Source of the DNA: Selaginella tamariscina
Taxonomy: Eukaryota; Streptophyta; Lycopodiopsida; Selaginellales; Selaginellaceae
NCBI GenBank assembly: GCA_003024785.1
Contig: PUQB01000535.1
Coordinates: 1 to 64,000, forward strand
Direction: 5' to 3'
Length of the DNA: 64,000 bases
Shown here: positions 10,817 to 64,000 of the stretch, one piece after another
Numbering within the stretch: the first letter of the stretch is position 1
How the letters are laid out: each line of letters begins with the position of its first letter
Program-made: the position numbers and the translations under genes
Notes under the pieces: generated by a model
Database searches by the model: none
What the model was told of the DNA's origin: nothing
What the model saw: the letters and a program-made list of their open reading frames with translations, nothing else

Positions 10817-10853
<37 letters not shown>

Positions 10854-24373: not shown

Positions 24374-24399
24374 TGCATGTTGTAACTAAAATGGGCATG
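24374..24399 (+). repeat. Left terminal inverted repeat, copy 1
   Basis: 26 bp, pairing with 41275-41300 at 24 of 26 positions. The same end occurs at 47242, 57194 and 57764. Confidence 0.85.
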
Positions 24400-24884
24400 G
24401 CTATAGTCCCATTTCCTAATAATTAGCAATTTTAGCTATTTAATTAACATTTTCTAATATTAAAGGAATATTCTTTAGAATATATGTTTGAAAATAGAAT
24501 ATTCTATTTTGTATTCTACCCTTTAATAAATTATAGCATTCATTGAACAAAAATTAATAATATTATAAAAGTAGAAGGTATTAAATTATATAATATATTG
24601 CCTAATATAACAATTAAGGAAGAGCATAAGAGGTACATTATATAAATATTGATGTTGTTATTAAAATATTAATATTTAAATATAACATTATTAATTAAAA
24701 ATTTGTAGTAGTAATAATATATATATAAAATCCTATAATAATATAGTCAATCTTCCATATCATTTTTTAAATTTATATAATTAAGTAAACAATTTGGTAC
24801 TATTATTAAAGAGTTTATAATAATTATGAATATTAAATATATGATATTTTATAATTTTGTAATTGCTTTAAGCTTCAGAAAACA
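24400..24884. other. AT-rich left subterminal region of the transposon
   Basis: Noncoding and conserved in the copies at 47.2, 57.2 and 57.8 kb. It contains repeated GAATATTC motifs near the terminus (about 24467-24510), which also occur near the right end, so they may be subterminal binding sites. Confidence 0.6.
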
Positions 24885-27800
24885 TACATTCCCTTGCAGT
24901 TTTGTTAATCATGACTTTATCAACGCTTCTTGACATCCACCTATATCGAATGGATTTAACATTTATAAAACATGCTGGGTCTTTTTAATTGGGAGACCAT
25001 GTTTTCTCTAGGCATCCATTATATCTTTCGCTCTCCTTCTCGTGTCGCCTTTTTTGTGGTTTGAACCATGCAACCTTAACAATACTATTTTTTGTGATTA
25101 CTTCAGGTGTGTCGATAATTTGACCCATCCAAATAGGCTGATTATATGACGCATCTGGAGTAATGAGAACCATCATTAGTTTTTGAAGATCCTGGCAGCA
25201 ATCAAAGTATGCTTTAGGTTTTTGGTTCCTTTGTCCAACAAAGTGTGGGGTTTGCACTTCCACATCACTACTGGCTTCTATGTCGTCTGTGCTCAGTGAT
25301 GTCATTTTAATCTCCTCTCGCCACCTTGTTTTAGGCCAAAAAGGGTGTTGCAATTCTGTACTTGTGACAGTAGGCCCTTCCAACTCTCGAACAACAGTCT
25401 CCCAATAGTCGACCACATGCTTATATAGTTCTGAGTAACCAGTTGCCTTATCAGAATTCTTTGGCATCGATTTTTGAATCCATGCCACATATTTTTTGAT
25501 GCCATCAATAATAACCTCTTGTTCCTTGAGCTGGGCACTCAATGGAATAGGGTCTGGTTGTCCTTCTGGGAGAAGTGGCTTTCCATTCTCTCCACTTTTG
25601 AAGAGCATTAACCCCTCTTTCGGTAACCACTCCTGCTCTGATGGCCGTAACTTGTACTGCATAATAGGTATACCATCTCGTATGGAGAAAAAGAATTGTA
25701 GTGGCACAAGGTGACCAATTAAAGAATCACTCCCCTCTTTTATATACTCCTTGAGAAATTTTTTGAAGTCTGGCACCTCAGTCACAAGCAAAGCACAACT
25801 TTTTTTGGAGATGCAATTTTCAAAAAGATTCATCATATGCGGTAAGGTAAGTGCACTTGTCCTTTTTGTAGAGTTGGAGACCTTGCTGAAGAACGCATCA
25901 ATATCTTCATGAGTGTGACCAACCATAAGAAAACTGAGCGTGATTGTTTCAAACACACCTTTGGCAACAAGCATTGACAAGTATGCTAGCACATATCTAG
26001 AAAATAAAAGTAAGTATGAACTTGAGAAACCCTTAAGTAAAATGATTTACCTATTTTTGTTCTCGCCTGCACAATTATCCATCTATAAAAGCAAATGACG
26101 AGGAAGCTTATTTGATGTTGAGGACACATGTACACTATTTGAGCTAGATCCCTCCACTAAACCTGAACTCTCAACAGGGCCATCTGTTTTTTGTGCAGGT
26201 TGCTGACAATGCCTCTCATATTCCCAAGTAGCCTCAAGTGCAGACGTGTTCATGAGAGCATTATGTAAAGGTTAAAGGTGTTGTTTCTTCACTTTGAGAT
26301 CACCGATAGGACTTGTCTGTGAGTGGGCTTCAAGGTTTCTGAAACACATGGCCAACGACCCAATAGTGAAATTGGAGTCGCTAGACCAATGTGGAAGTGA
26401 AAAGTGTCCATATGATTCACAACCGTGTCCATGTGTTAGCACACCTGTCAATGAAATCGGAAGTTTCATGACATTTCCAAGGCACTTTCAAATTGGTGTT
26501 GCAACGAGCTTTGAAATGCTGGTCTTTGAATGATCCATCTTGTCATGGATCAAGCACAGGTACTCTGATGGGCGTGACACAGAAAGCATGCGGTGTGCAT
26601 AATACTGAGACCGGCAAGTTTGTTGCGTAATCATGTGGGCCTCCATCTTCTTTTGAATGGCAGTGATCTCCACCAAGGTTTTTGCACAAGCCTCTGCAGC
26701 CTTCAATGATGTACAAGTGTCACACTTGGAAAAGCTAGAGTGTTTTGCAATCTCCACATCCTTAAAATGAGTATTCCATATGTTGTTGAAGGTACCAGTG
26801 CAGATTGCTTGCAGCCCCATCAAGCTGAGGCACTTGTTCACATGTTCACACAGCTTCAATTGAGTGTAGATCGAAGGCAAAACCTTGAGATTTTCCCTGA
26901 CCCCTGCATTTGTGGTTCGGCATTTGTGAGGCATCCTGTCTGCATTTGCTTCCACAAAAGCCTTGAGTATCTCTATGGCTGCCATAATGTGAGAGCGGGT
27001 TTTGACCAAGCCAGTGTTCCCATGTACTGAGGTTTGCGCTCCATCTAACCACTCATCCCTCCGACGGTAGAACGTGGTCTTTGGGATCCCATATATACTG
27101 TACCAAGCTTTGAAGCAGATGGCCACCTTATTAAATACCATGGATGTACTCTGATAACCTGTGTCCGAAGCCATTCCATCAATACACCCAGTTAGTGCAG
27201 CATATACAAACTCATGCCTTTGCTTTTGGGTGAGCGTACGAAAGACATGTCTACATTGAGTAATTTCATTCCGGTCTGCCATCTGACAACACTTCTTCTT
27301 GCAGCAGTCAATCATGGAAATGCTCGTAACACTTTCGGAAGATGTAGGATTCATCTTCATCCTCTTGCTGAAACATGTAGGGGAAGATCTGCAACCCATG
27401 AATCGCCTTTTTCTTTTAATAGGACCAATGCAAGGAACCTCTTCAAATATGAGTTGTTCTGGGTTGTTATTATTGAAATCCAACCCAGAATATGTTGAAC
27501 CATCTTGCCGTCTTAATTCAGATGTTCGCCACCTCACGAGGGATCCAGGATGCAAAGTGCCATTAGGTGAAACCTCTGTCACAACTACACCCACGAAGTC
27601 GGACCCTAGTTTCTTTTCTGACACTGCTTCCATTGGATTTATAGCTGTGATGATGCCTCTCCCAACCTCAATCTCATGAAGAAAGAGAATCACCTCATCC
27701 ATCACAGCAGGCAAGCCATCATCTGGAAAACTCGTGCTACTGTTTGTTTGTGACTCTGTATATTCTGTGTCAGCCTTGACTTCATCCAAATTCCACAATA

Positions 27801-28001
27801 CAGGAGAACCCTCCTCAAATTCCATTCCAGGAACCTCAACATGCTTGAAAATGTGTTCACCCATATGTACACACAAGATCCTTGGGCAATATTGTGACAT
27901 GATGCATTATCATCTCGAACTTCCACAGTTCCAGTGCCAACTATCTCGTTGTTCCGAAGAAGACATACTTTATCTCCAGTATTATACATATTGTCCTGCA
28001 C
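24885..28001 (-). pseudogene. DUF7869-like putative transposase, copy 1 (most complete)
   Basis: Read leftward: an N-terminal part (about 28001-27700, with a frame change near 27900), a long open segment 27900-26488 with a cysteine cluster (CCKKKCCQMADRNEITQCRH) and a zinc-binding FSKCDTCTSLKAAEACAK, then LIHDKMDHSKTSI. Downstream frames carry LTHGHGCESYGHFSLPHW, MDNCAGENKNR and VGHTHEDIDAFFSK. The D..D / DN.x.ENKN / HTHEDID trio is the hallmark of DUF7869 proteins, thought to be RNase-H-fold transposase relatives. An intron (26050-25997) is placed between ENKNR and YVLAYL. A frameshift near 26488, a TAG just before MDNC and a C-to-T stop at about 24985 (still a glutamine codon in the copy at 58.3 kb) disrupt it. 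Frameshifts in homopolymers could be assembly errors. Confidence 0.65.
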
Positions 28002-28140
28002 ATAAAAAATTGTGTTATTTATGATATCTGTTTATGCAATATTTGTAAGAAATTATAACTGCAGTTGCTTAATAATATGCATGTGCAATAATACATAATT
28101 ATATAAAAATAATATCTCATGCTTTATTAATATAACTGAT

Positions 28141-28945
28141 GGGCGGGATTAATCCCGCCGCAGACTCTACCCCTTCAGAGTGAGTCGGCGAGATTAATCC
28201 CGCCGCCGACTCTACCCCATCGGAGAGAGTCGGCGGGATTAATCCCGCCGCCGACTCTACCCCGTCGGAGAGAGGCGGCGGGATTAATCCTGCCACGGGC
28301 TCCCTCAGACGAGGAAGTACCGGCGGGATTAATCCCGCCGCAGACTCCCTCCGACGAGGAAGTAGCGGCGGGATTAATCCCGCCGCGGGCTCCCTCCGAC
28401 TAGGAAGTAGCGGCGGGATTAATCCCGCCGCCGGATCTTCCTTGTCTGTGAGAGTCGGCGGGATTAATCCCACCGCAAATTCCTCCGACGAGGAAGAGGG
28501 GGCGAGATTAATCCCGCCCACAACACTGACGACGGAGAATAGGCGGCGGGATTAATCCTGCCCACAACTCTGACGACGGGGAATAAGCGGCGGGATTAAT
28601 CCCGCCCACAACTCTCTTCGAAACTATGATTTCAAAGAGATTAGGGATGAATTCTGCCCACAAATATTTAAAACAGGGAAGTAGTGGCGAGATTAATCCC
28701 GCCACCCCTTCTCTGCCTCCTAAAATGGTTGGCGAGATTAATCCCGCTGACAACTCTTTCTAATAAATTCAAGTAAATCATTATCAGTTGAGAGAGTTAT
28801 CGGCGGGATTAATCTCGCCACTCTTTTTAAGAAGCGGAGAAGCATTGCCCGAACTAATTCTGCCATAGCTATGAAAGAGATGGTGGCGGGATTAATCCCA
28901 CCACCTCTTCAAAGAGCGAAAAAAATGGCCGGATTAATCTCGCCG
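28141..28945. repeat. Palindrome array 1a (GGCGGGATTAATCCCGCC)
   Basis: About 16-17 units of an 18-bp perfect palindrome. The ATTAAT centres fall at 28148, 28193, 28238, 28283, 28328, 28373, 28418 and 28463, an exact 45-bp period, then at 44 bp (28507, 28551, 28595) and irregularly to about 28933. Spacers are themselves related (GACTCTACCCCNTCGGAGAG, GACTCCCTCCGACGAGGAAG). The array is GC-rich in AT-rich surroundings and lies directly upstream of the leftward gene. Confidence 0.95.
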
Positions 28946-30829
28946 CCCTGGCTAACCGAGAATACTAAGTTAAAAGTATATTTAAACGGGATAAATCCCT
29001 AACAGAATATATTGTAATTCTAATGCATTCCTAAATCCCTAAATTCTAAAATTTAAGAGAGAATGTAAGAGAGTGAATCTTTATAAATATATCTAAATTT
29101 GTTTATAATACTTACTTGTAAACAGCACTGAAGGCGCTGTGCTTTCCTATAAACAATAGCGTACCCAATTTAATGTCGCTCCTGAGCTGATCACTAAGAA
29201 GAAAAAAGAAAATCTGAAGAGTGAAAATGAAGAAACCCTTGCCGGAGAAAGAACCAGATCTGAATTTGAGTGGGAAATTAAATGTATTTTCAAATTTACA
29301 TGTCAGACTGATAATACTTATGTCAGAAATTCGAAATTTTTGAAATAACAGAAAAGAAAATTTAAGATGAGTTGAAACAAATAACCGACAGTCTGACATA
29401 TATACTCTTCAATTCCAATGAGTGTTTTAAAATTGTATTTAATGTCATTCAAGTGCTTCAAGCTGTTTAATATTACGAAATTTTTGTAATTATTCTACAT
29501 TCTTAATATTCAAGTATATATTATTAAGTTTATATATATATATATATACATTAATACAATAAATAAATTGATATATTATTATGTATCATTTAAAATATAT
29601 TCATAGTCTGTTTATTATTATTATTTTCTTAATTACTCGAGTAATTAATTTACATTTCCTACTATTAATGGGATATTCTTTATTATTTTCTTAATATTCA
29701 AAGAATATTCCAATATTAAACCTAATTATCATAATTAAATTAGTCTTATTATTAATTATCTCAGTAATTATTCGTATATATTAATGGGATTTTCTCAATT
29801 AATTTGTTATTATTTCAAGAATATTCTAGTGTTAAACCTTATTATCAATATTAAATTAATATATATTATTAAAACTATATATGGCTATATATTAGATAAA
29901 ATCATATTATTATGTATAATTTAAAATATATTCATAGTGTGTATATTAATATTATTTTCTTAATTATTCGATGTTTGTTTTGCACATATTATATATAAAC
30001 ACAATCATAAATTTATATATACATGTGCACACGCATTTTAGAAGCACTTACAGAGACACATATGCACACACATGCACATTGCCCTAAACCAAACTTGAGA
30101 AATTATATGTTGCTTCTTTATTGAAAAACATCATGTTCAACGCATGTATGATCTATATGTACTCAGTGTGTGTATGTAACACATTGAATTTACACATGTA
30201 ATATATATGTATGTCTGTGTGTATACACGTGTGTATGTATATATGTGTACTAATATAATATATGCAATGTGTACGATTTTCATTTGTTAACACTATATCT
30301 CTTCTCTCATACATACACAGTGTCACCATGCATAATCCCTTCTCTCGTACATACACACCATGCATGATCATGATCCATAATATGTAGCCTGTCTCTTCTC
30401 TCATATATACACACCATGCATGATCCATAATATGTACTGATGTTACAATATTATGTAATATGTATAATGTATATCTGTGTATAACACTCACTCCTCTCAT
30501 ACATAAACACCATGCATGATCCATCCTAACCCTAAACCCTAAACCCTAAACCCTACATTGAATTTACACATGTAATATGTATGTATGTCTGTGTGTATAC
30601 ACGTGTGTATGTATATGTGTGTACTAATATATCCAATGTGTATGAATTTAATTTGTTAACACTCTCACTCTTCTCTCATACATACACACCATGCATGATC
30701 CATAATATGTATTGTCACTCTTCTCTCATACATACACACCATACATGATCCTATACTCTGTCTCTCTAATATTAATATATACTAATATGTATGTATGTCT
30801 ATGTGTACAAGCCGCGTACGCATGCCCTG
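28946..30829. other. Central noncoding region of copy 1
   Basis: 28946-29190 is shared with the copy at 50.8-51.07 kb. The following 1.6 kb is absent there and holds AT-rich DNA plus repeated 'catacatacacaccatgcatg' units, including a duplicated block (about 30183-30420 and 30556-30720). No gene recognised. Confidence 0.6.
30526..30555 (-). repeat. Interstitial plant-type telomere repeat
   Basis: About four units of CCCTAAA, the Arabidopsis-type telomere repeat, within the copy-1-specific central segment. Confidence 0.75.
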
Positions 30830-30834
30830 CGCGG

Positions 30835-31450
30835 AATCGGGCGGGATTTATCCCGCCGCCATTGGCCTGCCTGAAGGGCCTAGGCGGCGGGATTAATCCC
30901 CGCCCTGCGCGGAATCCGGCGGGATTAATCCCGCCGCCTAGGGCCTAAGTGAAGGCCGGGCATGCATATGCGCGGGATTAATCCCGCCGATTTCGAGCAG
31001 GGAATTGGCGTCCGGCGGGATTAATCCCGCCGCATAGGGACCGAGTGAAGGCCCTGGGCGGCGGGATTAATCCCGCCGAGCCTTCAATGCCTGTTGGAGG
31101 AATGAATCCCGCCACCCTTCCTTTTTTCTCCATTGGTGAGTCGGACCAATCCCAAACGTTTCTGTCTGAGACGTAGAAGGTTTACAACATACCAATGGAG
31201 AGAACTGGGAAGGGTGGGGAAATTCATTTAACCATCCCTTACATGGTGGGCGAGATTAATCCCGCCTCCTTTCTGGAGTCACTGAAGGGTGTGCCAAATA
31301 AATCCTGCCCAGTTCTCTCTGAGACCGAGAAGGGTGGCAAGATTAATTCCGCACTCCCGTTCAAGGCCTCCAGAAAGGTGGCGAGATTAATCCCGCCCAC
31401 TCTTTCAGGAGGCATTGAAGGGGTGGCGAGATTAATCCCGCCGCACCTTC
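30835..31450. repeat. Palindrome array 1b
   Basis: Eleven palindrome units, some altered (GGCGAGATTAATCCCGCC), upstream of the rightward gene. Spacers carry CATGCCCTGCGCGGAAT and its reverse complement, so larger inverted units exist around the core palindrome. Confidence 0.9.
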
Positions 31451-31556
31451 CATGTGAATATATATGTGTATTAGTATATATAAGTTGCATATCTCATTTT
31501 ATTTACTTTTATCATCTTATCATAATATTTCGAGTAAAAGCTAGGAATCTATGTAA

Positions 31557-31643
31557 AACTGTCCAGAGCTCACATTTGTGGTGGTTCTAAAACGAAATGT
31601 TATCTTTCTTTTGCACTAGCACAAATGTGAGCTTTGGACAGTT
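31557..31643. promoter_or_regulatory. Conserved hairpin upstream of the rightward gene, copy 1
   Basis: A 24-bp stem (AACTGTCCAGAGCTCACATT... at 31557 and its near-complement ending ...GCTTTGGACAGTT at 31643) encloses a 39-bp loop. It recurs at 52058-52143 and 61146-61233 at the same distance (about 140-150 bp) from the first ATG. It may be an untranslated-region structure or a binding site. Confidence 0.7.
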
Positions 31644-31784
31644 AATTCCGTCTACTTCTCTTGTGTATTATTTTTGTATATTCGGGTTTATACAAGTGTG
31701 TGTGCGTTTTTATATGATTTGTATTCATAGTGTATTATTTTGCAGAAGGACGATTTGATCAAACAAGGAGATCGAGTCATTAGT

Positions 31785-34700
31785 ATGGAGTCGTCGTCAA
31801 ATTCTGGGTAAGAATTAAAATAAAATCTGTTATACTCGGATACTTGAACTAATCATTTTTGTATTCAGATGTGGAATTGAGGTGACATTAAAGGAGAGCA
31901 GGAGAAGAGATGGGCAGGGGGATTCTGGAATCAACTTGGCCATATTTCAAACTAAACGGGAAGCGCATTGGAACAACCATGGTTGCTGTCAAACTAACCT
32001 CTGTCACATCGCATGGACAAGCAAAACAATGGAAAGTGGGTGTGCTAGTCAAGCATCCGAAAGCATGCTGTGAACCCAGATTGAACGATGCTCGACACAT
32101 ATGCCTTGTTCCATCCAATGTCACGTTCTCGGATCCAGAGGTCGCCAGTTACAACATTAATTTCGGGTGGTTTTGTCGACTTGTGGATAATGACGTTCAC
32201 GTGTTCACTAATGATGTTGACCTTGGAGTTCTTCTTCAACTCAACGAAAGCCCATCTATGGAGGGGATCCATCTGGATGTCTACTTCGAAGATCTTCAGA
32301 CTCATCGAGTAGGTGTATTGTCAGGAGATATTGCTTCACAATACAGAAAATCAGCAAGTGGAGCAATCGTCCCTCTTCACATTGAAGAAGAACACTGCGA
32401 CATCATAAAGGAGATTGAGAGGGTGGCTTGGTCTCAGGTTCTTTACAGATCACGTTCAATTTGCTTAGAAAATTTCGGGAGCTGGAAGAGTGTGCCGAGA
32501 ACCTTAGAACAGCATCAATCGGGGATCACACATGTTGATTCGGATCGTAGAAGAAAATCATTAGTCGTTTTGTCAGCTGCACCTGTGGCGTCCCATGCTG
32601 CAATAAGCCACAAGGAAATGATGTTGGATGATAGGATTTACCAGTGTAGGGTTAAGTATTGCAGCGTCAACCCAAACTTCAATTACAGGCCACTCAATCA
32701 GGAACGTGTAGCTGAGCTCATGGAGAAGATGAAGGACGACAATTCTTACACCGTTCCACATAATGCTGTTTTGTGCGCATACTACGAGAGACAAAAGGCG
32801 CTGACAAAGTGTGGATCACAACACCGGAACAAATGAGGAAGGTTCAGACGGAGAATAGAAAATCAGTTAAGTACTACATCATTAGTGGCCAGCACACAAT
32901 AACGGCAGCCCAACGACTTCTCGATGACACACAACAAAGGAACGATGGCAACAAAACTTTCGAGCATACCCGTGAGAAGCTGACGAAAAGATCGGCGTTT
33001 TTAGCGAAGCCGAATCTCACAATCGAGCAGTACCATAAGTTATCGGCGGAATGGGACGCTGCAGACACCAACCACTACAACAGCAAAATATGGGAGAAGT
33101 TCAAACACACGCGAGCCGTGTGGGAATCTCTTCAGCGACCACAAAGAGCTACCGCAGGGAATACACAATCTGCGGAATACCGGGTAAGCAAATTGTTTGG
33201 GCGGGATTTATCTCGCCGGTATATTAATCTGTCTTTTTCCTCAGAGAGTTGAAGAAATTGTAGCAGTTGATTTTGCCCAGGTGGGCGGGAAGGAAACATC
33301 CTTTTTGATGATGTTGATTTCTTGTCCCGAGGATAGGATCTTTGCCAAATGGTTGGGGATTATGGAATCCTTTGCAAAAGGAACACTGAAGAAGAAGCAG
33401 ACAAGTGAAGTGGAGCCCTCAGAGAGTCTGCAAAGAAACCCAGTAAGACGCCGAAGCTAAGTCTGTTCAATCTATAAAGGATGTAGACAACGATTTCAAG
33501 CTCACATGGTTGAAGCCTTTAAATGGAACAACGATGGAGGAGATGGAAGTCTTGGCTGATTTGGTGATTGATGGCAAATTACAGATTAACAACAGCAGCC
33601 CCACCTCTCCTTTTCATCTCAAGGCAATGGAGTTGAAGACGGTCAGGCACTTCAAGGAGTGGTTGGGAATACACTGCCACAAACTGGGTTGGATTTCGGC
33701 TTCAACATACGAAGAGGTCAACAAATATTTGCATGTGACAAATGATGATATGCTTGTCGAATGGGTGAATCAATCGGAAGATCTGGGCAAGAATCTATTG
33801 CACGCCAACGCCAAAAGGAGAACATTGCGATGACGCCTTCTCTTATGGCAGTCCTTCAGCAGCGGAGAACCGAGTTGAACCTTATAAAGGAGGATGCTAC
33901 GAATCACGACAAGCCCTACAGATGTTTGTTGTTGGATTCGGAGACTTTATGGGGTACCATCACTGCTTGTAGGAAACCGTTTCAATTGTTCGTGATGGAT
34001 CGGCGGGTGTCAAAAAATCCTTCGACAGACAGGACACTAGAGGATTTGGTGGAGAAACTTAGCCGTGCAAGCATGTACAAAGAAGGTATTTATTATTGAA
34101 TTCATACTTGCACTCTTGACTGATATCTACGTTTTCAGGTATTTATTTCTTGATTCTTGCTCATGTCACCGATACCTTTGCCTTCTCCTTTGCCAAGAGG
34201 AATAAACATCGTTGGACAGGATTTTATATGAATGATGCTGATCCGAAGTGCATTGATTCGGTTGTTCACTTGGTTGTTAGGAATGCGCCAAACAGTTTCA
34301 AACTTCCAAATGACTGGCCAGGCATCTGTTTGCACTCCAACGGCCCTGAACCTCCATCCGATACACCGATAGGTGAGTGACGTATTCGGCAATGTACGTT
34401 ATCCAAACATCACAAGTCAAGCGGCACGGAGCATCGTCAACTTGATCAGGGGTCCTCACAGTGATGCGTGGGTTTTTGACTACTGCACTAGGGGGTCCGT
34501 CTTGAAGGAGTGTTACCTTCGGCATACATGTGTATTTGCCGTTGAAAAGGATAAGACCATGGTTGAGGACCTGAACAAGTGGATAGATAGGTTCTCAACT
34601 GACTACCCCAACGAATCCATAAAGGAGTATTTGAGAAAGTTCCCTCCAGATAAGTGCGATAGCTCTGAAGACGAATCTGGTTCAATGTCGGAGTCTGAGG

Positions 34701-34884
34701 ACGAACTTCAATCAGATATTAGACCGGAAGTTATCTCGAGGAGTACAGAACATTGCACACTCCATTACCCATGGAAACATCAATAGAAGATGCAGAAGAT
34801 CTTGAACCATCTCACAAGCGGCTTAGACCTTCTTCGCCTCACTCAGAAGGTAATAGCGAAGAAGAATTGTTAATGAATTGTTAG
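31785..34884 (+). pseudogene. ParB-like and DNA-methylase-like protein gene, copy 1
   Basis: Exons 31785-31807, 31869-33183, 33245-34085 and 34139-34849 (or to the stop at 34884) are bounded by GT-AG introns. The central part has YCSVNPNFNYRPLNQERVAE and, about 60 residues on, YYIISGQHTITAAQRLL, matching ParB/Srx-type folds (N.R.l....v..L ... G.H...AA). Further on come FVMDRRVSKN at the position of the methylase DPPY box and SQAARSIVNLI ... AWVFDYCTRGSVL ... VFAVEKDK, matching the SAM-binding motif I and the acidic end of strand 2 of N4/N6 DNA methylases. A Ser/Glu-rich tail with a basic KRLRPSSPHS follows. A 2-bp deletion near 31905 and one- or two-base changes near 32795, 33440, 33815 and 34373 break the frame. 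Confidence 0.55.
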
Positions 34885-34951
34885 AGTGACGAATAGTTGT
34901 AAATGAGTGTAACATAAGGCATTTTTGTATATTTCGTTTATATTTGTACAG

Positions 34952-35900
34952 AAAATAAATTCTCAAGGATTAATGAAGCTTTTAGTTCAAACATGGGTCA
35001 CACATTAACAAGGTAAATAATATACCTTGATAATTTTAAGGTCAGCTAATTATCATTTTGCAGATGTAATGAAACAATTGAGAACATGGATTTTCAGCAT
35101 TGGCATGAGGTAAGAGAGGGGTTTGGCGACAATTTCTTGTGCCACATGTCAGAATGACAGAGTTCATGCAGGAAATGGATAATAATGCAGCTCAAAACAT
35201 CGTTACCATGGGGGCCACTTCAGTTTTTTCATCATCATTTTTATTGGCTTCAGTTCCGAAATCAATTTCTTCAGCGCATGCAATATCTGAATCTTGTAAG
35301 GATGATGTACAATTAAATGATGAAGGGATAGGCAACGAGATAGTGGCAACGGATAAATGTGAAAGGGAGCAAACAAGTGATTTGCAAAGTATTCAAGAGG
35401 CAACGCTATCTCATGTTACTCATGGCCATATTGTGTTGTTGGATGTCAATGGTGTTCTGCTTCATCGACAAAGGCGAGGATAGGAAAAAAGAAATCAAAC
35501 AAGGAGATTTCATTCCTTGTCATGGTAAATTTCGATATGATATTATTTTTCGTCCAGGGTTGGATCGTCTCTTTCAAAAGCTTAAGGAGATGGGTGCGCT
35601 TGTGGGGATTTGGTCATGCATGCAGATTCATAACTTAACACCGCTGTTGAATTTGCTTAAGAAACATTGTAGTGTTGCAGAAGATGTGATTCGTAAAGAT
35701 TGGATTTTTGACCAGCGAATGTGTTATAAACCTCTCGAATTTCACAATATAAGAAAGGAAAGCAAGCCATACTTCTTCAAGAATGAAAGAATAATTGGGA
35801 CTCATGGGGAGATCAGTCGCTTAAGGATAATGAAGAATGCACATATCTTAGTAGTAGACGACTCTCCTCAGAAGGCTATGCTCAACCAAAACATTGCTTG
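34952..35900 (+). CDS. HAD phosphatase (NLI-interacting-factor/FCP1-like), copy 1, cut by gap
   Basis: Exons 34952-35012, 35064-35109 and 35172 onward join in phase; the first also joins in phase to the preceding gene at 34849, so this may be the C-terminal part of one long protein. The HAD core shows motif I IVLLDVNGVLL (about 35429-35461), RPGLDRLFQKLKEMGALVGI followed by WSCMQIHNL (motif II region), and LVVDDSPQKAMLNQ (motif III/IV, about 35848-35890). This is the plant 'LD(I/V)NG' branch of NLI-interacting-factor phosphatases, where the second motif-I Asp is Asn. A frame change near 35475 interrupts motif I from motif II. The gene runs into the N gap. Confidence 0.65.
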
Positions 35901-52057: not shown

Positions 52058-52143
52058 AACTGTCTAGAGCTCACATTTGTGGTGGTTCTAAAACGAAATG
52101 TTATCTTTCTTTGCACTAGCACAAATGTGAGCTTTGAACAGTT
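52058..52143. promoter_or_regulatory. Conserved hairpin, copy 3
   Basis: Same stem-loop as 31557-31643, with two stem changes. Confidence 0.65.
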
Positions 52144-52285
52144 AATCCCGTCCACTTCTCTCTGTGTATTATTTTTGTATATTCGGGTTTATACAAGTGT
52201 GTGTGCGTTTTTATATGATTTGTATTCATAATGTATTATTTTGCAGAAAAACGATTTAATTAAACAAAGAGATCGAGTCATTAGT

Positions 52286-54799
52286 ATGGAGTCGTCGTCA
52301 AATTCTGGGTAAGAATTAAAATAAAATCTGTTATACTTGGATATGTGCTTGAAGAACTAATCATTTTTGTATTCAGATGTGGAATTGAGGTGGCATTGAA
52401 GACGAGAGTAGGAGAAGAGATGGGCAGGGGGATTCTGGAATCAACTTGGCCATATTTCAAACTAAACTTGAAGCGCATTGGAACAACCATGGTTGCTGTC
52501 AAATTAACCTTTGTCACATTGCATGGACAAGCAAAACAATGGAAAGTGGGTGTGCTATCAAGCATCCGAAAGCATATGCCTTATTCCATCCAATGTCACG
52601 TTCTCGGATCCAGAGGTCGCTAGTTACAACATTAATTTTGGGTGGTCTTGTCGACTTGTGGATAATGACGTTCACGTGTTCATTAATGATGTTGACTGTG
52701 GAGTTCTTCTTCAACTCAACAAAAGCCCATCTATGGAGGGGATTTAACTAGATGTCTACTTCGAAGATCTTCAGACTCATCGAGTAGGTGTATTCTCAAT
52801 AGAGATTGCTTCACAATATAAACATCCACATGTGGAGCAATCGTCCCTCTTCACATTGAAGAAGAACACAGCGACATCATAAGGGAGATTGAGAGTGTGT
52901 CTCGGTCTCAGGTTCTTTACAGATCACGTTCAATTTGCTTAGAAAATTTTGGGAGCTGGAAGAGTGTGCCGAGAACATTAAAATAGCATCAATCGGGGAT
53001 CACACATGTTAATTCGGATCGTAGAAGAAAATCATCAGTCGTTTTGTCAGTTGCACCTGTGGCATCCCATGCTGCAATAAGCCACAAGGAAATGATGTTG
53101 GATGATAGGATTTATGAGTGTAGGGTTAAGTATTGCAGCGTGAACCCAAACTTTAATTACAGGCCACTCAACCAGGAACGTGTAGTTGAGCTCATGGAGA
53201 AGATGAAGGACAACAATTCTTATACCGTTCCACATAATGATGTTTTGTGTCTATACTACGAGAGAAACAAAGGCGCTGACAAAGTATGGATCTCAACACC
53301 AGAACAAATGAGGAAGATTCAGACGGAAAATAGAAAATCAATCAAGTACTACATCATTAGTGGCTAGCACACAATAACGTCAGCCCAATGACTTCTCGAT
53401 GAACACAACAAAGGAACGATGGCAACAAAACTTTCTGAGCATACTCATGAGAAGCTGACGAAAAGATCAACGTTTTTAGCGAAGGCAAATCTATAATTGA
53501 GCAGTACCATAAGTTATCAGCGAATGGGATGCTGCAAACCAACCACTACAACACAAAATATGGCAGAAGTTCAAACACACGCGAGCCGTGTGGGAATCTC
53601 TTCAGTGACCACAAAGAGCTATTGTAAGGAATACATAATGTGCGATGTACATGGTAAGTAAATTGTTTGGGCGGGATTTATCTTGCCGGTATATTAATCT
53701 ATCTTTTTTTTTTCCAGAGAGTTGAAGAAATTATAGCAGTTGATTTTGCCCAGGTGGGCGGAAAGAAAACATCCTTTTTGATGATGTTGATTTCTTGTCT
53801 CGAGGATAAGATCTTTACCAAATGGTTAGGGATTATGGAATCCTTTGCAAAAGGAACACTGAAGAAGAAACAGACAAGTGAAGAGGAGCCCTTAGAGAAG
53901 TTTGCAAAGAAACCCAGTAAGACGTCGAAGGCTAAGTCTGTTCAATCTACAAAGGATGTAGATAACGATGTCAAGCTCACATGGTTGAAGCCTTTAAATG
54001 GAACAACGATGGAGGAGATGGAAGTCTTGGTTGATTTGATGGCAAACTACAAATTAACAACAGCAACCCCACATCTCCTTTTCATCTCAAGGCAATGGAG
54101 TTGAAGATGGTCAGGCACTTCAAGGAGTGGTTGGGAATACACTGCCACAAATTGGGTTGGACCTCGGCTTCAACATACGAAGAGGTCAGGAAATATTTGC
54201 ATATGACAAACGATGATATGCTTGTCGAATGGGTGAATCAATAGGAAGATTTGAGCAAGAATCTATTGCACAACCCTGAACCGATACACCGATAGCTGAG
54301 AGTGACGTATTCGGCAATGTACGTTATCCAAACATTACAAGTCAAGCAGCACGGAGCATCATCAACTTGATCAGGGGTCCTCACAGTGATGCATGGGTTT
54401 TTGACTACTGCACTAGGGGGTCCATCTTGAAGGAGTGTTACCTTCGGGATATATGTGTGTTTGCCATTGAAACGGATAAGACCATGGTTGAGGACCTGAA
54501 CAAGTGGATAGAGAGGTTCTCAACTGACTACCCCAACAAACCCATACAAGAGTATTTGAGAAAGTTCCCTCTCGATAAGTGTGATAGTTTTGAAGACGAA
54601 TCTGGTTCAATGTCGGAGTCTGAGGATGAACTTTAGACCAGAAGTTATCTCGAGGAGTACAGAACATTCACATACTCCATTACCCATGGAAATATCAATA
54701 GAAGATACGAAAGGTCTTGAACCATCTCACAAGCGGCCTAGACCTTCTTCACCTCACTCAGAAGGTAATAGCGAAGAAGAATTGTTAATGAGTTCTTAG
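52286..54799 (+). pseudogene. ParB-like and DNA-methylase-like protein gene, copy 3 (internal deletion)
   Basis: First exon ATG at 52286, second exon from 52377. The open N-terminal part reads GRGILESTWPYFKLN, and RVKYCSVNPNFNYRPLNQER lies at 53122-53180 with YYIISG at about 53350. A decayed palindrome lies in the following intron (53668-53700). At about 54280 some 540 bp are missing relative to copy 1, removing the segment with the DPPY-like box and strands after it; the SAM-motif-like AWVFDYCTRGSIL remains (about 54390). Numerous stops (for example in place of the residue after ISG) show it is dead. Confidence 0.6.
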
Positions 54800-54847
54800 A
54801 GTGACAAATAATTGTAAATTTTGTATATTTCGTTTATATTTGTATAG

Positions 54848-56224
54848 AAAATAAATTCTCAAGGATTAATGAAGCTTTTAGTTTAAACATGGGTCACACA
54901 TTAACAAGGTAAATAATATACCTTGATAATTATAAGGTTAGCTAACTATCATTTTGCAAATGTAATGAAACAGTTGAGAACATGGATTTTCAGCATTGCC
55001 ATGAGGTAAGAGAGGGGTTTGGCAAAAATTTCTTGTGCCACATGTCAGAATGACAGAGTTCATGCAGGAAATAGATAATAATGCAGCTCAAAACATCCTT
55101 ACCATGGGGACCACTTCAGTTTTTTCATCACCATTTCTATTGGCTTCAGTTCCGAAATTAATTTCTTCAATGCCTGCAATATCTGAATCTTGTAAGGATG
55201 ATGTACAATTAAATGATAAAGGGATAGGCAACGAGATAGTGTCAACAGATAAATGTGAAAGGGAGCAAACAAGTGAGTTGCAAAGTATTCAAGAGGCAAC
55301 ACTATCCCATGTAACTCATGGCCATATTGTGTTGTTGGATGTCAATGGTGTTCTTCTTCATCGACAAAGGCTTGAGGATAGGAAAAAAGAAATCAAACAA
55401 GGAAATTTCATTCCTTGTCATGGTAAATTTTGATATGATATTATTTTTTGTCTAGGGTTGGATAGTCTCTTTCAAAAGCTTAGGAGATGGATGTGCTTGT
55501 GGGGATTTGGTCATGCATGCAGATTCACAACTTGACACCGCTGTTGAATTTACTTAAGAAAAATTGTAATGTTGCAGAAGAGATGATTCATAAAGATTGG
55601 ATTTTTGATCAACGAGTATGTTATAAACCTCTCGAATTTTACAATATAAAAAAAGAAAGTAAGCCATACTTCTTCAAGAATGAAAGATTTATTGGGACTC
55701 ATGGGGAGATCATTCGCTTAAGAATAATGAAGAACGCACATATGTTAGTGGTAGACGACTCTCCTCAGAAGGCTATGCTCAACCAAAACACTGCTTGTAT
55801 TTATCCAATCACTTTAGACTCATATTCTGATACCGATATCATGGATGAGTTAGTGAACTACTTGGATACGTGCCTTAAAAAGAAGAATCTCGAAAACTTT
55901 TGTGAGCAGTATCCACCGTATCAAACATTTTCTAAAGCTTTTCTTTCTCGTGATTTTGAATTTTATAAAATGAAGGATAGCAACCGGGCGCTTTATAATA
56001 TTATTCTTAAGGAACGTCAATTTTTAAATGAGCCTTTATGCAAACCTTCTCTTATCACAGCTTATGTATTAACAAAGATGGCAACTCCCAATTGCATTCG
56101 TGAGAGTGTTAGGTGGTGGCAACAACATCAAGATATTAATCAAAATGATTCGATTAATTTAGAGAGTGATGATTTAGACAAAATGAGAAGATTTCTTTAT
56201 ATGATAGGAAGAAAGTATTTATAA
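54848..56224 (+). pseudogene. HAD phosphatase (NLI-interacting-factor/FCP1-like), copy 3
   Basis: Exon from 54848, the open segment 55035-55433 with IVLLDVNGVLLHRQ, then a stop and frame change near 55433-55487, and the segment 55487-56224 with VGIWSCMQIHNL and VVDDSPQKAMLNQ. Sequence after the HAD core (FCEQYPPYQTFSKAFLSRDF) is conserved with copy 2. It has the same family features as the other copies. Confidence 0.6.
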
Positions 56225-56511
56225 AAAAATTAACATGTTGATAAGAAAATGATTTCATTTGTAATTATGTTTGATAGTATTTTTAATTATTGTAAATTAT
56301 TTTTAGAACGAAGAATAATATGAATATTTTAAGATATTTTAGGAATATTCCTTACTAAGTAAGGTTATTGAAGGATTAATTTATTAATTAATTAATATTT
56401 AAGGCTTAATTATATATTAATTAAATAATTAATTAATAATTAAAACTTAATTAGTAATTTATTTTATATTCCCATTTTCACATATCATGCCCACTTTAGT
56501 TACAACGTGCA

Positions 56512-56517
56512 TACTTA
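56512..56517 (+). repeat. Target-site duplication TACTTA, right
   Basis: Exact repeat of 47236-47241, directly after the right TGCA terminus of copy 3. Confidence 0.75.
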
Positions 56518-57193: not shown

Positions 57194-57763
57194 TGCATGT
57201 TGTAACTAAAATGAGCATGGTTATAGTCCCATTTCCTAATAATTAGCAATTTTAGCTATTTAATTAGCATTTTCTAATATTAAAGGAATATTCTTTAGCA
57301 TTCATTGAACAAAAATTAATAGCATTATAAAAGTAGAAGGTATTAAATTATATAATATATTGCCTAATATAACAATTAAGGAAGAGCATAAAGGTACATT
57401 ATATAAATATTAATGTTGTTATTAAAATATTAATATTTAAATATAACATTATTAATTAAAAATTTGTAATAGTAATAATATATATATAAAATCCTATAAT
57501 AATATAGTCAATCTTCCATATCATTTTTTAAATTTATATAGTTAGTAAACAATTTGGTACTATTATTAAAGAGTTTATAATAATTATGAATATTAAATAT
57601 ATTATATTTTATAATTTGGTAATTGCTTTAAACTTCAGAAAACATACATTCCCTTGTAGTTTTGTTAATCGTGACTTTAATAACGCTTCTTTACATCCAC
57701 TCATATCGAATGGATTTAACATTTATAAAACATGCTGAGTCTTTTTGATTAGGAGACCATGTA
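57194..57763. mobile_element. Large TIR transposon, left-end fragment interrupted by copy 4
   Basis: Begins with TGCATGTTGTAACTAAAATG and follows the left end for about 570 bp into the 3' part of the transposase gene (to 'gagaccatgta'), where the complete left terminus of copy 4 starts at 57764. This is one element inserted into another; the rest of the older copy should lie beyond the window. Confidence 0.8.
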
Positions 57764-58267
57764 TGCAAGTTGTAACTAAAATGGGCATGGCTATAGTCCC
57801 ATTTCCTAATAATTAGCAATTATAGCTATTTAATTAGCATTTTCTAATATTAAAGGAATATTCTTTAGAATATATGTTTGAAAAGAGAATATTCTTTAGA
57901 ATATTCTATTTTGTATTCTACCCTTTAATAAATTATAGCATTCATTAAACAAAAATTAATAACATTATAAAAGTAGAATGTATTAAATTATATATAATTG
58001 CCTAATATAACAATTAAGGAAGAGCATAAGAGGTACATTATATAAATATTGATGTTGTTATTAAAATATTAATATTTAAATATAACATTATTAATTAAAA
58101 ATTTGTAGTAGTAATAATATATATATAAATCCTATAATAATATAGTCAATCTTCCATATCATTTTTTAAATTTATATAGTTAAGTATACAATTTGGTACT
58201 ATTATTAAAGAGTTTATAATAATTATGAATATTAAATAATATGATATTTTATAATTTTGTAATTGCT

Positions 58268-59655
58268 TTAAGCTTCAGAAAACATACATTCCCTTGCAGT
58301 TTTGTTAATCGTGACTTTATCAACGCTTCTTGACATCCACCCATATCGAATGGATTTAACATTTATAAAACATGTTGGGTCTTTTTGATTGGGAGACCAT
58401 GTTTTCTCTAGGCATCCATTATATCTTTCGTTCTCCTTCTCGTGTCGCCTTTTTTGTGGTTTGAACCATGCAACCTTAACAATACTATTTTTTGTGATTA
58501 CTTCAGGTGTGTCGATAATTTGACCCATCCAAATAGGCTGATTATATGACGCATCTGGAGTAATGAGAACCATCATTAGTTTTGAAGATCCTTGCAGCAA
58601 TCAAAGTATGCTTTAGGTTTTTGGTTCCTTTGTCCAACAAAATGTGGGGTTTCACTTCCACATCACTACTGCCTTCTATGTCGTCTGTGCTCAGTGATGT
58701 CATTTCAATCTCCTCTCGCCACCTTGTTTTAGGACAAAAGGGTGTTGCAATTCTGTACTTGTGACAGTAGGCCCTTCCAACTCTCGAACAACAGTCTCCC
58801 AATAGTCGACCACATGCTTATATAGTTCTGAGTAACCAGTTGCCTTATCAGAATTCTTTGGCATCGATTTTTGAACCCATGCCACATATTTTTTGATGCC
58901 ATCAATAATAACCTCTTTGTTTCCTTGAGCTGGGCACTCAATGGAATAGGGTCTGGTTGTCCTTCTGGGAGAAGTGGCTTTCCATCCTCTCCACTTTTGA
59001 AGAGCATTAAGCCCTCTTTCGGTAACCACTCCTGCTCTGATGGTCGTAACTTGTACTGCATAATAGGTATACCATCTCGTATGGAGAAAAAGAATTGTAA
59101 CGGCACAAGGTGACCAACTAAAGAATCACTCCCTTCTTTTATATACTCCTTGAGAAATTTTTTGAGTCTGGCACCTCAGTCACAAGCAAACACAACTTTT
59201 TTTGGAGATGCAATTTTCAAAAAGATTCATCATATGCGGTAAGGTAAGTGCACTTGTCCTTTTTGTAGAGTTGGAGACCTTGCTGAAGAACGCATCAATA
59301 TCTTTCATGAGTGTGACCAACCATAAGGAAACTGAGCGTGATTGTTTCAAACACACCTTTGGCAACAAGCATGACAAGTATGCTAGCACATATCTAGAAA
59401 ATAAAAGTAAGTATGAGCTTGAGAAACCCTTAAGTAAAATGATTTACCTATTTTTGTTCTCGCCTGCACAATTATCCATCTGTAAAAAGCAAATGACGAG
59501 GAAGTTTATTTGATGTTGAGGACACATGTACACTATTTGAGCTAGATCCCTCCACTGAACCTGAACTCTCAACATGGCCATCTGTTTTTTGTGCAGGTTG
59601 CTGACAATGCCTCTCATATCCCAGTTAGCCTCAAGTGCAGATGTGTTCATGAGAA
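58268..59655 (-). pseudogene. DUF7869-like putative transposase, copy 4 (5' deleted)
   Basis: The C-terminal third is the best preserved of the copies: the reading ends in NKTARECMFSEA at 58268, passing the site where copy 1 has a stop. The segment HQINFLVICFLQMDNCAGEN followed by KNR is continuous here (about 59510-59455), whereas copy 1 has a stop before MDN. VGHTHED-type sequence follows at about 59320, shifted by an indel. The 5' two thirds are missing: at about 59655 the gene runs straight into the palindrome array. Confidence 0.65.
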
Positions 59656-61040
59656 TTAATCCTGCCGCTATAGGTTTATGGCCTCGGCGGCGGGATTAAT
59701 CCCGCCGCTATATGGTTGGGGCCATGGCGGGGGATTAATCCCGCCCCGAGGCCCTTCACGCAGGCTATGGGCGGCGGATTAATCCCGCCGCTCTACGACA
59801 AACCGAAGAGCGGGATTAATCCCGCCGCCCATGGCCTGCGTGAGGGGCCTCGGCGGCGGGATTAATCCCGCCGCTCATCCATGCCCTGCGGAATGCGGCG
59901 GGATTTATCTCGCCGGCAATGGCCTGTGTGAAGGCCCTAATGGGCGGGATTAATCCCGCCGGATTCCGCGCAGGGCATTTACAGGGGATGGGCGGCGGGA
60001 TTAATCCCGCCGCTCATGAGGCTAACCGAGAGCCTGCATGAAAGATCCTGCACGGAAGGCTAACCAAAGAGCCTGTATGACATGTCCTGCGCATAAGGCG
60101 GCGGGATTAATCCCGCCGCCCGGGAATTCACGCAGGACATGAACGGCGGCCCCACACTCATGCCCTTCGCGGAGGGGGCGGGATTAATCCCGCCGCTCAG
60201 GCACTTCCGCAGGATATAAGCGGCGGGATTAATCCCGCCCCCACCCATCCCTGTTCAAAATGCCGCAGCCATATATATGTGTGAGCGCATGATTTACGAG
60301 AGGGCGGCGGGATTAGCTCCGAACCTTCATTACCCGGTGGCGGATTAATCCCGCCACTTCTTACCCATTGGTATGTTGAATCAATCCCGACTAACTCTGT
60401 CTGAGACGGAGAAGGTTTACAAAATACCAATGGAGGGAACTGAGAAGGGTGGTGGGATTAATTTCACCATCCCTTACATGGTGGGGGGATTAATCCCGCC
60501 GCGTACGCATGCCCTGCGCGGAATCGGGCGGGATTTATCCCGCCGCCATTGGCCTGAAGTGCCTAGGCGGCGGGATTAATCCCGCCCGATTCCGCGCAGG
60601 GAATTGGCGTCCGGCGGGATTAATCCCGCATAGGGACCGAGTGAAGGCCCTGGGCGGGGGATTAATCCCGCGAGTCTTCAATGCCTGTTGGAGGAATGAA
60701 TCCCGCCACCCTTCCTTTTTTCCATTGGTGAGTCGGACCAATCCCAAACGTTTCTGTCTGAGACGTAGAAGGTTTACAACATACCAATGGAGAGAATGGG
60801 AAGGGTGGGGAAATTCATTTAACCATCCTTACATGGTGGGCGAGATTAATCCCGCCTCCTTTCTGGAGTCACTGAAGGGGTGTGAGAAATAAATCCTGCC
60901 CAGTTCTCTCTGAGACCGAGAAGGGTGGCAAGATTAATTCCGCACTCCCGTTCAAGGCCTCCAGAAAGGTGGCGAGATTAATCCCGCCCACTCTTTCAGG
61001 AGGCATTGAAGGGGTGGCGAGATTAATCCCGCCGCACCTT
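59650..61040. repeat. Palindrome array 4
   Basis: About 25 units, many perfect (GGCGGGATTAATCCCGCC at about 59688, 59851, 59993, 60097, 60568). Spacers contain CATGCCCTGCGCGGAAT-type sequence in both orientations. The part from about 60480 on matches array 1b closely. Confidence 0.95.
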
Positions 61041-61145
61041 CCATGTGAATATATATGTGTATTAGTATATATAAGTTGCATATCTCATTTTATTTACTTT
61101 TATCATCTTATCATAATATTTCGAGTAAAAGCTAGGAATCTATGT

Positions 61146-61233
61146 AAAACTGTCCAGAGCTCACATTTGTGGTGGTTCTAAAACGAAATGTTATCTTTCT
61201 TTTGCACTAACACAAATGTGAGCTTCGGACAGT
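61146..61233. promoter_or_regulatory. Conserved hairpin, copy 4
   Basis: Same stem-loop as 31557-31643, about 140 bp before the first ATG. Confidence 0.65.
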
Positions 61234-61374
61234 TAATTACGTCTACTTCTCTCTGTGTATTATTTTTGTATATTCGGGTTTATACAAGTGTGTGTGCGTT
61301 TTTATATAATTTTATTATAGTGTATTATTTTGCAGAAGGACGATTTGATCAAACAAGGAGATCGAGTCATTAGT

Positions 61375-64000
61375 ATGGAGTCGTCGTCAAATTCTGGGTA
61401 AGAATTAAAATAAAATCTGTTATACTCGGATACTTGAACTAATCATTTTTGTATTCAGATGTGGAATTGAGGTGACATTAAAGACAAGAGCAGGAGAAGA
61501 GATGGGCAGGGGGATTCTGGAATCAACTTGGCCATATTTTAAGATAAATGGGAAGCGCATTGGAGCAACCATGGTTGCTGTCAAATTAACCTCTGTCACA
61601 TCTCATGGACAAGCAAAACAATGGAAAGTAGATTCGCTAGTCAAGCACCCGAAAGCAGGCTGCGAACCCAGATTGGACGATGCTCGACAGATATGCCTTG
61701 TTCCATCCAATGTCACGTTCTCGGATCCAGAGGTCGTCAGTTACAACATTAATTCGGGTGGTTTTGTCGACTTGTGGATAATGACGTTCACGTGTTCACT
61801 AATGATGTTGACCTTGGAGTTCTTCTTCAACTCAACGAAAGCCCATCTATGGAGGGGATCCATCTGGATGTCTACTTCGAAGATCTTCAGACTCATCGAG
61901 TAGGTGTATTGTCAGGAGATATTGCTTCACAATACAGAAAATCAGCAAGTGGAGCAATCTTCCCTCTTCACATTGAAGAAGAACACAGCGACATCATAAG
62001 GAGATTGAGAGGTGGCTCGGTCTCAGGTTCTCTACAGATCACGTTCAATTTGCTTAGGAAGCTTCGGGAGCTGGAAGAGTGTGCCGAGAACACTAGAACA
62101 GCTGCAGTCGGGGATCACACATGTTGATTCGGATCGCAAAAGAAAATCATCAATCGTTTTGTCAGCTGCACCTGTGGCATCTCATGCTGCAATAAGTCAC
62201 AAGGAAATGATGTTGGATGATAAGATTTATCCTTGTAGGGTTAAATATTGCAGCGTCAACCCAAACTTCAATTACAGGCCACTCAACCAGGAACGTGTAG
62301 CTGAGCTCATGGAGAAGATGAAGGACGACAATTCTTATACCGTTCCACATAATGCTGTTTTGTGTCCATACTATGAAAGAAGGAAGGGCTGACAAAGTCT
62401 GGATCACAACACCAGAACAACTCATGAAGATTCAGACGGAGAATAAAAATCTATCAAGTACTACATCATTAGTGGCCAGCACACAATAACGGCAGCCCAA
62501 CGACTTCTCGAGAACACAACAAAGGAACGATGGCAACAAAACTTTCCGAGCATACCCGTGAGAAGCTGACAAAAAGATCGGCGTTTTTAGCTAAGCCGAA
62601 TCTCACAATCGAGCAGTACCATAAGTTATCGGCGGAATGGGACGCTGCCGACACCAACCACTACAACAGCAAAATATGGGAGAAGTTTAAACACACGCGA
62701 GCCGTGTGGGAATCTCTTCAGCGACCACAAAGAGCTACCGCAGGGAATACACAATCTGCGGAATACCGGGTAAGCAAATTGTTTGGGCGGGATTTATCTC
62801 GCCGGTATATTAATCTGTCTTTTTCCTCAGAGAGTTGAAGAAATTGCAGCAGTTGATTTTGCCCAGGTGGGCGGGAAGGAAACATCCTTTCTGATGATGT
62901 TGATTTCTTGCCCCGAAGATAGGATCTTTGCCAAATGGTTGGGGATTATGGAATCCTTTTCAAAAGGAACACTGAAGAAGAAGCAGACAAGTGAAGGGGA
63001 GCCCTCAGAAAAGTCTGCAAAGAAACCCAGTAAGACGCCGAAGGCTAAGTCTGTTCAATCTACAAAGGATGTAGACAACGATTTCAAGCTCACATGGTTG
63101 AAGCCTTTAAATGGAACAACGATGGAGGAGATGGAAGTCTTGGCTGATTTGGTGATCGATGGCAAACTACAAATTAATAACAGCAGCCCAACCTCTCCTT
63201 TTCATCTCAAGGCAATGGAGTTGAAGACGGTCAGGCATTTCAAGGAGTGGTTGGGAATACACTGCCACAAACTGGGTTGGACCTCGACTTCAACATATGA
63301 AGAGGTCAGCAAATATTTGCATGTGACGAACGATGATATGCTTGTCGAATGGGTGAACCAATCGGAAGATCTAGGCAAGAATCTATTGCACGCCAACGCC
63401 AAAAAGGAGAACATTGGGATGACGCCTTCTCTTATGGCAGTCCTTCAGCAGCGGAGAACCGAATTGAACCTTATAAAGGAGGATGCTACGAATCACGACA
63501 AGCCCTACAGATGTTTGTTGTTAGATTCGGAGACTTTATGGGGTAACATCACTGCTTGTAGGAAACCGTTTCAATTGTTCGTGATGGATCGGCGGGTGTC
63601 AAAAAATCTTTCGACAGATAGGGCACTAGAGGATCTGGTGGAGAAACTTAGCCGTGCAAGCATATACATAGAAGGTATTTATTATTGAATTCATGCTTGC
63701 GCTCTTCACTGATACCTACTTTTTCAGGTATTTATTTCTTGATTCTTGCTCATGTCACCGATACTTTTGCCTTCGCCTTCGCCAAGAAGAATAGACATCG
63801 TTGGACAGGATTTTATATGAACGATGCTAATCCCAAGTGCATTGATACCGTTGTTCACTTGGTTGTTAGGAATGCGCCAAACAATTTCAAGCTTCCAAAT
63901 GACTGGCCAGGCATCTGTTTGCACTCCAACGGCCCTGAACCTCCATCCGATACACCGATAGGTATGAGTGACGTATTCGGCAATGTACGTTATCCAAACA
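61375..64000 (+). pseudogene. ParB-like and DNA-methylase-like protein gene, copy 4 (cut by window end)
   Basis: ATG at 61375, second exon from 61459, intron 62771-62831 with a decayed palindrome, then a fully open third exon (62832-63675) with RVEEIAAVDFAQVGGKETSF, the Lys-rich AKKPSKTPKAKS, RCLLLDSETLWGNITACRKP and FVMDRRVSKN, and a fourth exon from 63728 (IYFLILAHVTDTFAFAFAK). ParB-type KYCSVNPNFNYRPLNQERVA lies at 62243-62302. Frame breaks remain near 61751, 61999, 62390 and 62510. Because the third exon is open over 280 codons in a repeat copy, the reading frame has clearly been under recent selection or the copy is young. Confidence 0.6.

Follow-up and report, generated by a model that had tools for sequence, protein, structure and literature searches.

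Several copies of a TG..CA-ended DNA transposon with a probable DUF7869 transposase and palindrome arrays in a contig of Selaginella tamariscina

Introduction

What kind of mobile element accounts for the repeated termini in contig PUQB01000535.1 of the lycopod Selaginella tamariscina (assembly GCA_003024785.1)? The stretch analysed here, the window, covers positions 1 to 64,000 of this contig. A first-pass annotation had proposed that positions 24374 to 64000 hold an undescribed family of large DNA transposons with a common 26-bp terminus and a 6-bp target-site duplication (TSD), carrying a DUF7869-like protein in one direction, a ParB/methylase-like/HAD gene in the other and palindrome arrays between them. 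There is good support for several copies of a single DNA transposon in the window, with inverted termini of the TG..CA kind, and for the view that it carries a probable DDE transposase together with passenger genes and arrays of palindromes. The core of the proposal thus holds, namely a transposon with terminal inverted repeats (TIRs), a probable DDE transposase and palindromes; its ParB and methylase labels do not, and the stretch 24374-41300 is not one clean copy.

Results

The element is defined by its ends. At three or fewer mismatches the terminus TGCANGTTGTAACTAAARTG has six matches in the window, against 0.04 expected from shuffling, and all six lie where the annotation had placed them: four are left ends (24374, 47242, 57194, 57764) and two are right ends (41300, 56511). 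In the eight left/right comparisons, left and reversed right ends match at 22-24 of 26 bases, and the likeness falls to 1-6 of the next 15 bases, giving a TIR of 26 bp with TG..CA ends. The copy at 47242-56511 (copy B) is flanked on both sides by an exact TACTTA, again as proposed; at the local composition, six matching flank bases would arise with a chance of about 4e-4. BLAST alignments among the copies begin at 24372, 47240 and 57762 and stop at 41302 and 56513, that is, 2 bp (TA) beyond the TGCA ends, and TA adjoins the ends in three of four left flanks and both right flanks (5/6 in total). TG..CA is preferred over TA..TA as the true ends because the latter would cost copy B its duplication.

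The gene on the minus strand of the element matches Pfam DUF7869 (E 2.7e-25), as the annotation had named it. Among the matches listed, the domain occurs in 101 of 101 homologs, from liverwort, coral, mollusc, urchin and algae, and the protein of the element groups with those of liverworts. A structure model of a relative, P0005 (pLDDT 86.7), has an RNase H core with D169, D327 and E366 in the canonical DDE positions; the spacing from D327 to E366 is short and free of a large insertion, as in integrase-type enzymes. The nearest chains among the structural neighbours of the model are integrases and transposases, although Foldseek on its own, against PDB and BFVD, returned nothing at E <= 0.001. 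Because the modelled core places D, D and E as in DDE transposases, DUF7869 is very probably the DDE transposase of the element. At the sequence level, none of five DUF7869 proteins hit a Pfam integrase family at E <= 10, in a search in which the HMMER filters remove most matches above E 0.1, and a profile of the A1 transposase found no integrase among PDB sequences. The codon-position test for selection between the A and B transposases gave p 0.39. At the N-terminus of the transposase (27675-27570 on the minus strand, residues 75-110 of P0001) there is a weak, below-cut-off Pfam match to Transposase_23 (TNP1/EN/SPM), E 0.23, and several plant relatives carry PF26133.

No DUF7869 relative was found in the viral contigs searched, and tblastn against phages with a DUF7869 piece gave nothing. 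A search of genome contigs placed relatives on two contigs of metagenome-assembled genomes, L002 and L003, which are probably eukaryotic DNA in bacterial bins. By name, DUF7869 appeared in no paper in a literature search, Repbase and Dfam being outside its scope; this is the sole support for calling the family undescribed, and it may have an established name in either database.

The second hallmark of the element is an 18-bp palindrome, GGCGGGATTAATCCCGCC, with 72 sites within three mismatches (18 exact). Every one of them belongs to a copy of the element, and the remaining 31 kb of the window is free of such sites. The arrays that these sites form do lie, as first reported, between the oppositely directed genes, upstream of both. 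Within arrays, 37 of 63 spacings are 42-46 bp, the rest ranging from 32 to 189; arrays 1 and 2 have the palindrome in common but differ in their spacer. Isolated sites occur in a gene 2 intron (33200, 37896, 53670 and 62786). The observed/expected CpG ratio is 0.89-1.15 in the arrays, which themselves consist of CpG-bearing motifs, and 0.30-0.38 in the transposase genes, 0.62-0.77 in gene 2, 0.70 in the first 24 kb of the window and 0.16 in the interval between A and B. Between A and B, CpG has changed to TG/CA at 10 of 51 array palindrome CpGs and 20 of 45 array spacer CpGs (p 0.015), the palindromes having been chosen by likeness to their consensus; against the genes (49/142) the palindromes differ at p 0.053. 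These counts exclude CpGs that align with a gap or with some other substitution (11 in palindromes, 8 in spacers, 45 in genes) and three intron palindrome CpGs.

Beside the distant DUF7869 gene of L003, at 4972-5162, an 89-bp perfect tandem repeat reaching the contig end carries two other palindromes with centres 48 and 41 bp apart. Because a similar mean spacing recurs there, palindromes may be an ancient component of these elements; the L003 palindromes, seen at one of the two loci found, may also be due to chance. L002 has no GC-rich palindrome of arm 8 or more; as it ends about 170 bases after its DUF7869 match, the look for arrays on the 3' side covers L003 alone. The 18-bp palindrome is also present once, without mismatch, in a viral contig (L001:146-163).

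Between array 2 and gene 2 lies a strong foldback, found in A1 and again in D (61148-61234, z -9.1) and B (52065-52136, z -5.6), with 17-24 unbroken pairs, or 8 + 15 in D. It looks like an element-encoded microRNA precursor; Rfam has no match at gathering score in the window.

Gene 2, a multi-exon gene, diverges from the transposase gene. In the exons tested between A1 and A2, changes fall on 24 of the 915 first or second positions of codons and on 30 of the 457 third ones. Because third positions changed more (p 6e-4), the substitution pattern indicates that gene 2 is maintained as a protein, under purifying selection, in the A1/A2 lineage. The searches made yielded neither a relative nor a significant domain for it. 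In Pfam, a blended gene 2 query matched no family at E <= 10, nor did P0106 and P0108, and the open reading frame (ORF) at 32773-33252, the ParB-like part, gave below-cut-off matches to DrrA_P4M (E 0.019) and DUF1015 (E 0.025; 14 of 25.8 bits). The best match was at E 0.16 in PHROGs and E 1.4 among PDB sequences, and NCBIfam gave none. Residues 180-900 of a 954-aa query found nothing at E <= 0.001 among 7626 candidates of 525-1670 aa, a length range that leaves single-exon pieces outside, and a 457-aa query found nothing at E <= 0.1 among 1636. In tblastn the ParB-like piece met four phage records (best E 2) and no plasmid. A single-sequence structure model reached pLDDT 40.8.

By eye, gene 2 shows a ParB-like motif order (NPNFNYRPL..ERVAELMEKM, then YYIISGQHTITAAQRLL; also given as IISGQHTITAAQRLL) and later a stretch that resembles methylase motif I (FDYCTRGSVLKECYL...VEKD); neither is assigned. 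Neither the GERR-type motif of ParB nor a catalytic methylase motif of DPPY type was seen in the gene. The ParB and methylase labels were rejected, since neither Pfam, PHROGs and NCBIfam nor the PDB sequences and the protein searches gave a significant match. The composite ParB/methylase-like/HAD gene of the first-pass annotation is also more likely two genes. An N-terminal domain common to the transposase and gene 2 is not supported: in 1000 shuffles, the score was equalled 13 and 31 times with one profile and 101 and 233 times with a second.

The NIF/HAD-like gene stands after gene 2 on the same strand and matches Pfam PF03031 at E 3.2e-4, with 20.8 bits against a cut-off of 21.8. Where a DxD motif was sought, all of A1, A2 and B have DVNG as motif I, and for this reason the activity of the predicted product is doubtful. 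Selection tests on its exons gave p 0.10 (A1 against A2, partial) and p 0.76 (A2 against B).

The copies are listed with their features in Table 1. A single intact 17-kb copy A, spanning 24374-41300, was rejected in favour of a chimera over an N gap (35901-36392) with a duplicated element half on either side: 31693-35900 recurs as 36393-40587 at 95.8%. The gap region is likely a scaffold misjoin or collapsed copies, and the outer flanks of 24374-41300 differ (AGAATA / TATATA), as expected from different insertions or a misjoin. The A2 segment 36393-39108 is 99.6% identical to 61285-64000 of copy D, which is itself inserted in the left end of copy C, an element within its own kind. Compared with A2 over gene 2 and the HAD gene, copy B has 199 G/C-to-A/T differences against 80 in reverse and 39 CpG transitions against 8; because of this excess, copy B looks older by its substitutions.

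Some further observations concern the surroundings. Three copies, A1, C and D, have the sequence TTTGATTA in their left flanks, no further than about 25 bp from the element (24344-24373, 57164-57193 and 57734-57763); that of D sits in element sequence, and the flank of copy B has none. It may reflect a target preference or chance. Copy B lacks any equivalent of about 1.6 kb between the A1 arrays (29196-30811), in which AT-rich repeats and a telomere-type AACCCTA stretch are found. Beside the A1 left end, a minus-strand ORF (23466-24083) shows by eye a FLYWCH/WRKY-like Cys/His pattern, while Pfam gave nothing for it at E <= 0.01. At 4646-11704, AT-rich DNA holds diverged direct repeats that are unrelated to the element. 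The window also encodes a PPR repeat protein, which fits a land-plant host, as do the AACCCTA stretch and the grouping of the DUF7869 protein with those of liverworts.

Table 1. Transposon copies and their features in the window (positions are those of the 64,000-nucleotide stretch)
Feature	Position	Strand	Basis
Copy A1: left end and transposase gene, two palindrome arrays, gene 2 and the beginning of the NIF/HAD gene; enters N gap	24374..35900	.	
Copy A2: right-hand half of a different copy, with gene 2, NIF/HAD gene and right end; linked to A1 via N gap	36393..41300	.	
Copy B: both ends, TSD TACTTA, decayed genes; 9,270 bp	47242..56511	.	
Copy C: left-end fragment, split by copy D	57194..57763	.	
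Copy D: left end, transposase gene (3' part only), one palindrome array and gene 2; leaves window	57764..64000	.	
Left 26-bp TIR, copy A1	24374..24399	+	terminus match, TIR comparison
Right 26-bp TIR, copy A2	41275..41300	-	terminus match, TIR comparison
Left 26-bp TIR, copy B	47242..47267	+	terminus match, TIR comparison
Right 26-bp TIR, copy B	56486..56511	-	terminus match, TIR comparison
TACTTA TSD, left (copy B)	47236..47241	+	flank comparison
TACTTA TSD, right (copy B)	56512..56517	+	flank comparison
Probable transposase gene of copy A1, intron-containing; DUF7869 (PF25273); candidate catalytic residues Asp (DKMD), Asp (MDNCAGENKN), Glu (GHTHED)	24985..27900	-	
Palindrome array 1 (A1), just upstream of transposase start; 16 sites within 3 mismatches	28142..28944	.	
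Palindrome array 2 (A1), upstream of gene 2; 10 sites within 3 mismatches	30840..31442	.	
Palindrome array 1, copy B; 10 sites	50064..50612	.	
Palindrome array 2, copy B; 11 sites	51127..51943	.	
Palindrome array, copy D; 21 sites; adjoins truncated transposase gene	59689..61033	.	
Pre-miRNA-like foldback between array 2 and gene 2 (A1)	31557..31643	+	z -10.9
Gene 2, copy A1: orphan, several exons, frame breaks; ParB-like/methylase-like motifs by eye only	~31785..34884	+	
NIF/HAD phosphatase-like gene, last exons (copy A2); motif I = DVNG	39900..41029	+	

Discussion

The data make it likely that these copies belong to a family of large cut-and-paste DNA transposons of a land plant in which DUF7869 is the DDE transposase, gene 2 and the HAD gene are helpers or passengers and the palindromes are bound by a protein of the element. 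The transposase, through its RNase H core, would bind the 26-bp TG..CA inverted ends and excise the element by an integrase-like cut-and-paste reaction; joining to the target with a 6-bp stagger, perhaps preferentially at TA-bordered sites, followed by gap filling, would yield the 6-bp duplication. Gene 2 and the NIF/HAD-like gene may act as helpers or simply be carried along. Lying ahead of two divergent genes, the palindromes offer a natural site for an element-encoded regulator, and they would most likely be bound by the product of gene 2 or by the transposase, controlling the central promoters or preventing their silencing. Roles of gene 2 and the palindromes in regulation or anti-silencing are speculative.

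Other origins of the ends have to be weighed. That the element is a divergent branch of the IS3EU/GingerRoot superfamily, the eukaryotic relatives of bacterial IS3/IS481, is unlikely: according to PMC10045372 the transposases of that group are known by their IS3/IS481 similarity, whereas the DUF7869 searches described above found no integrase, and TA..TA ends would leave copy B without its 6-bp duplication. Speaking for such a kinship are the short, integrase-type modelled core, the TA beside most ends, and, in the same source, the 6-bp TSDs and occasional TG..CA termini that match copy B and the occurrence of GingerRoot in a clubmoss. A long terminal repeat (LTR) retrotransposon or a Maverick/virus-like element is largely refuted and has next to no probability left. 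TG..CA ends do occur in LTR elements and Polintons have 6-bp TSDs (PMC10045372), yet the element has inverted repeats of 26 bp only and no direct long terminal repeats, and no polymerase, reverse transcriptase or capsid family was among the Pfam matches of the ten ORFs scanned.

Several observations weigh against the reading that we prefer, an element moved by its own DUF7869 transposase with palindromes bound by its own protein. The TSD, exact as it is in copy B, is known in the window from this single copy, the only one with both of its own ends, so that the 6-bp duplication claimed for the family rests on one case. The transposase is intact in none of the window's copies, and the 5' part of the gene is missing from B and D, the D remainder abutting the palindrome array directly; this would suit a DUF7869 gene that is a mere passenger between ends moved by a transposase encoded elsewhere. 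We regard that as improbable, given the DDE core modelled in a DUF7869 relative, the same place of the gene in A, B and D and the recurrence of the family across eukaryotes. As to the palindromes, there is not far from an even chance that they serve transposition or replication, for example as transposase-binding repeats, or are a neutral satellite expansion, and have no part in regulation or anti-silencing. The palindromes of L003 lie 3' of the DUF7869 gene and not between divergent genes, and the A-B mismatch rate of palindromes nearly equals that of spacers (36/269 against 121/745; 27/201 against 94/671); on the other side stand the position of the window arrays upstream of two divergent genes, the palindrome kept in common where the spacer is not and the single sites in a gene 2 intron. 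The CpG counts suggest protection of the palindromes only weakly, and selection on gene 2 is less clear between A2 and B (p 0.057).

If DUF7869, a Pfam domain of unknown function, is indeed a DDE transposase, this role would give a meaning to the 'genes' annotated with it, and would suggest that large transposons have gone unrecognised in many genomes. In Riccia, corals and molluscs, the DUF7869 proteins have the Pfam domain and the conserved residues found in the element's transposase. Going further, DUF7869 could be an unnamed, eukaryote-wide integrase-like DDE superfamily, with a plant branch whose fast-evolving ParB-like protein would load on CpG-bearing palindromes about 45 bp apart between divergent promoters, as an anti-silencing or partition-like system; we think it quite unlikely that this whole picture is right.

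In TSD length and modelled core, IS3EU/GingerRoot is the nearest known kind, with no sequence link found. Its members have 6-bp TSDs and TA..TA, occasionally TG..CA, termini, as described in PMC10045372. The likeness consists of the 6-bp TSD (one copy here), the occasional TG..CA and an integrase-like DDE core without a large insertion between the second D and E; the element differs in a DUF7869 protein without sequence-level integrase match, in copy B, which TA..TA ends misfit, and in its passenger genes. Fungal TET+ IS3EU elements carry alpha-kinase and TET/JBP genes, the latter proposed in PMC12730594 to be a self-defence of fungal transposons. Dada elements resemble ours in a DDE transposase, a 6-7 bp TSD, an N-terminal Cys motif and a size of 4.7-11 kb (PMC3706591); the same source describes them as having no TIRs and targeting small RNA genes, and gives D635 and E811 as the second D and the E of Dada-U6_DR, whereas the element here has TIRs, a short D-E spacing and no Rfam match in the window. 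With VirB/ParB-type anti-silencers gene 2 shares a ParB-like motif order seen by eye only, with neither profile support nor a GERR-type motif. VirB is bacterial (PMC10653881). In Arabidopsis VANDAL elements, the transposon protein VANC binds arrayed short motifs and removes methylation (PMC5735166). Our element resembles these Mutator-like elements in layout only, having short-motif arrays in its non-coding parts and an extra element-encoded protein; its transposase and motif are different. By this analogy gene 2 might act as a protein that binds arrayed motifs and removes methylation or defends the element, a tentative and rather doubtful assignment. Together, the palindrome arrays and the selected orphan gene are a candidate, open to direct testing, for a second case next to VANDAL in which a transposon encodes its own control or anti-silencing system.
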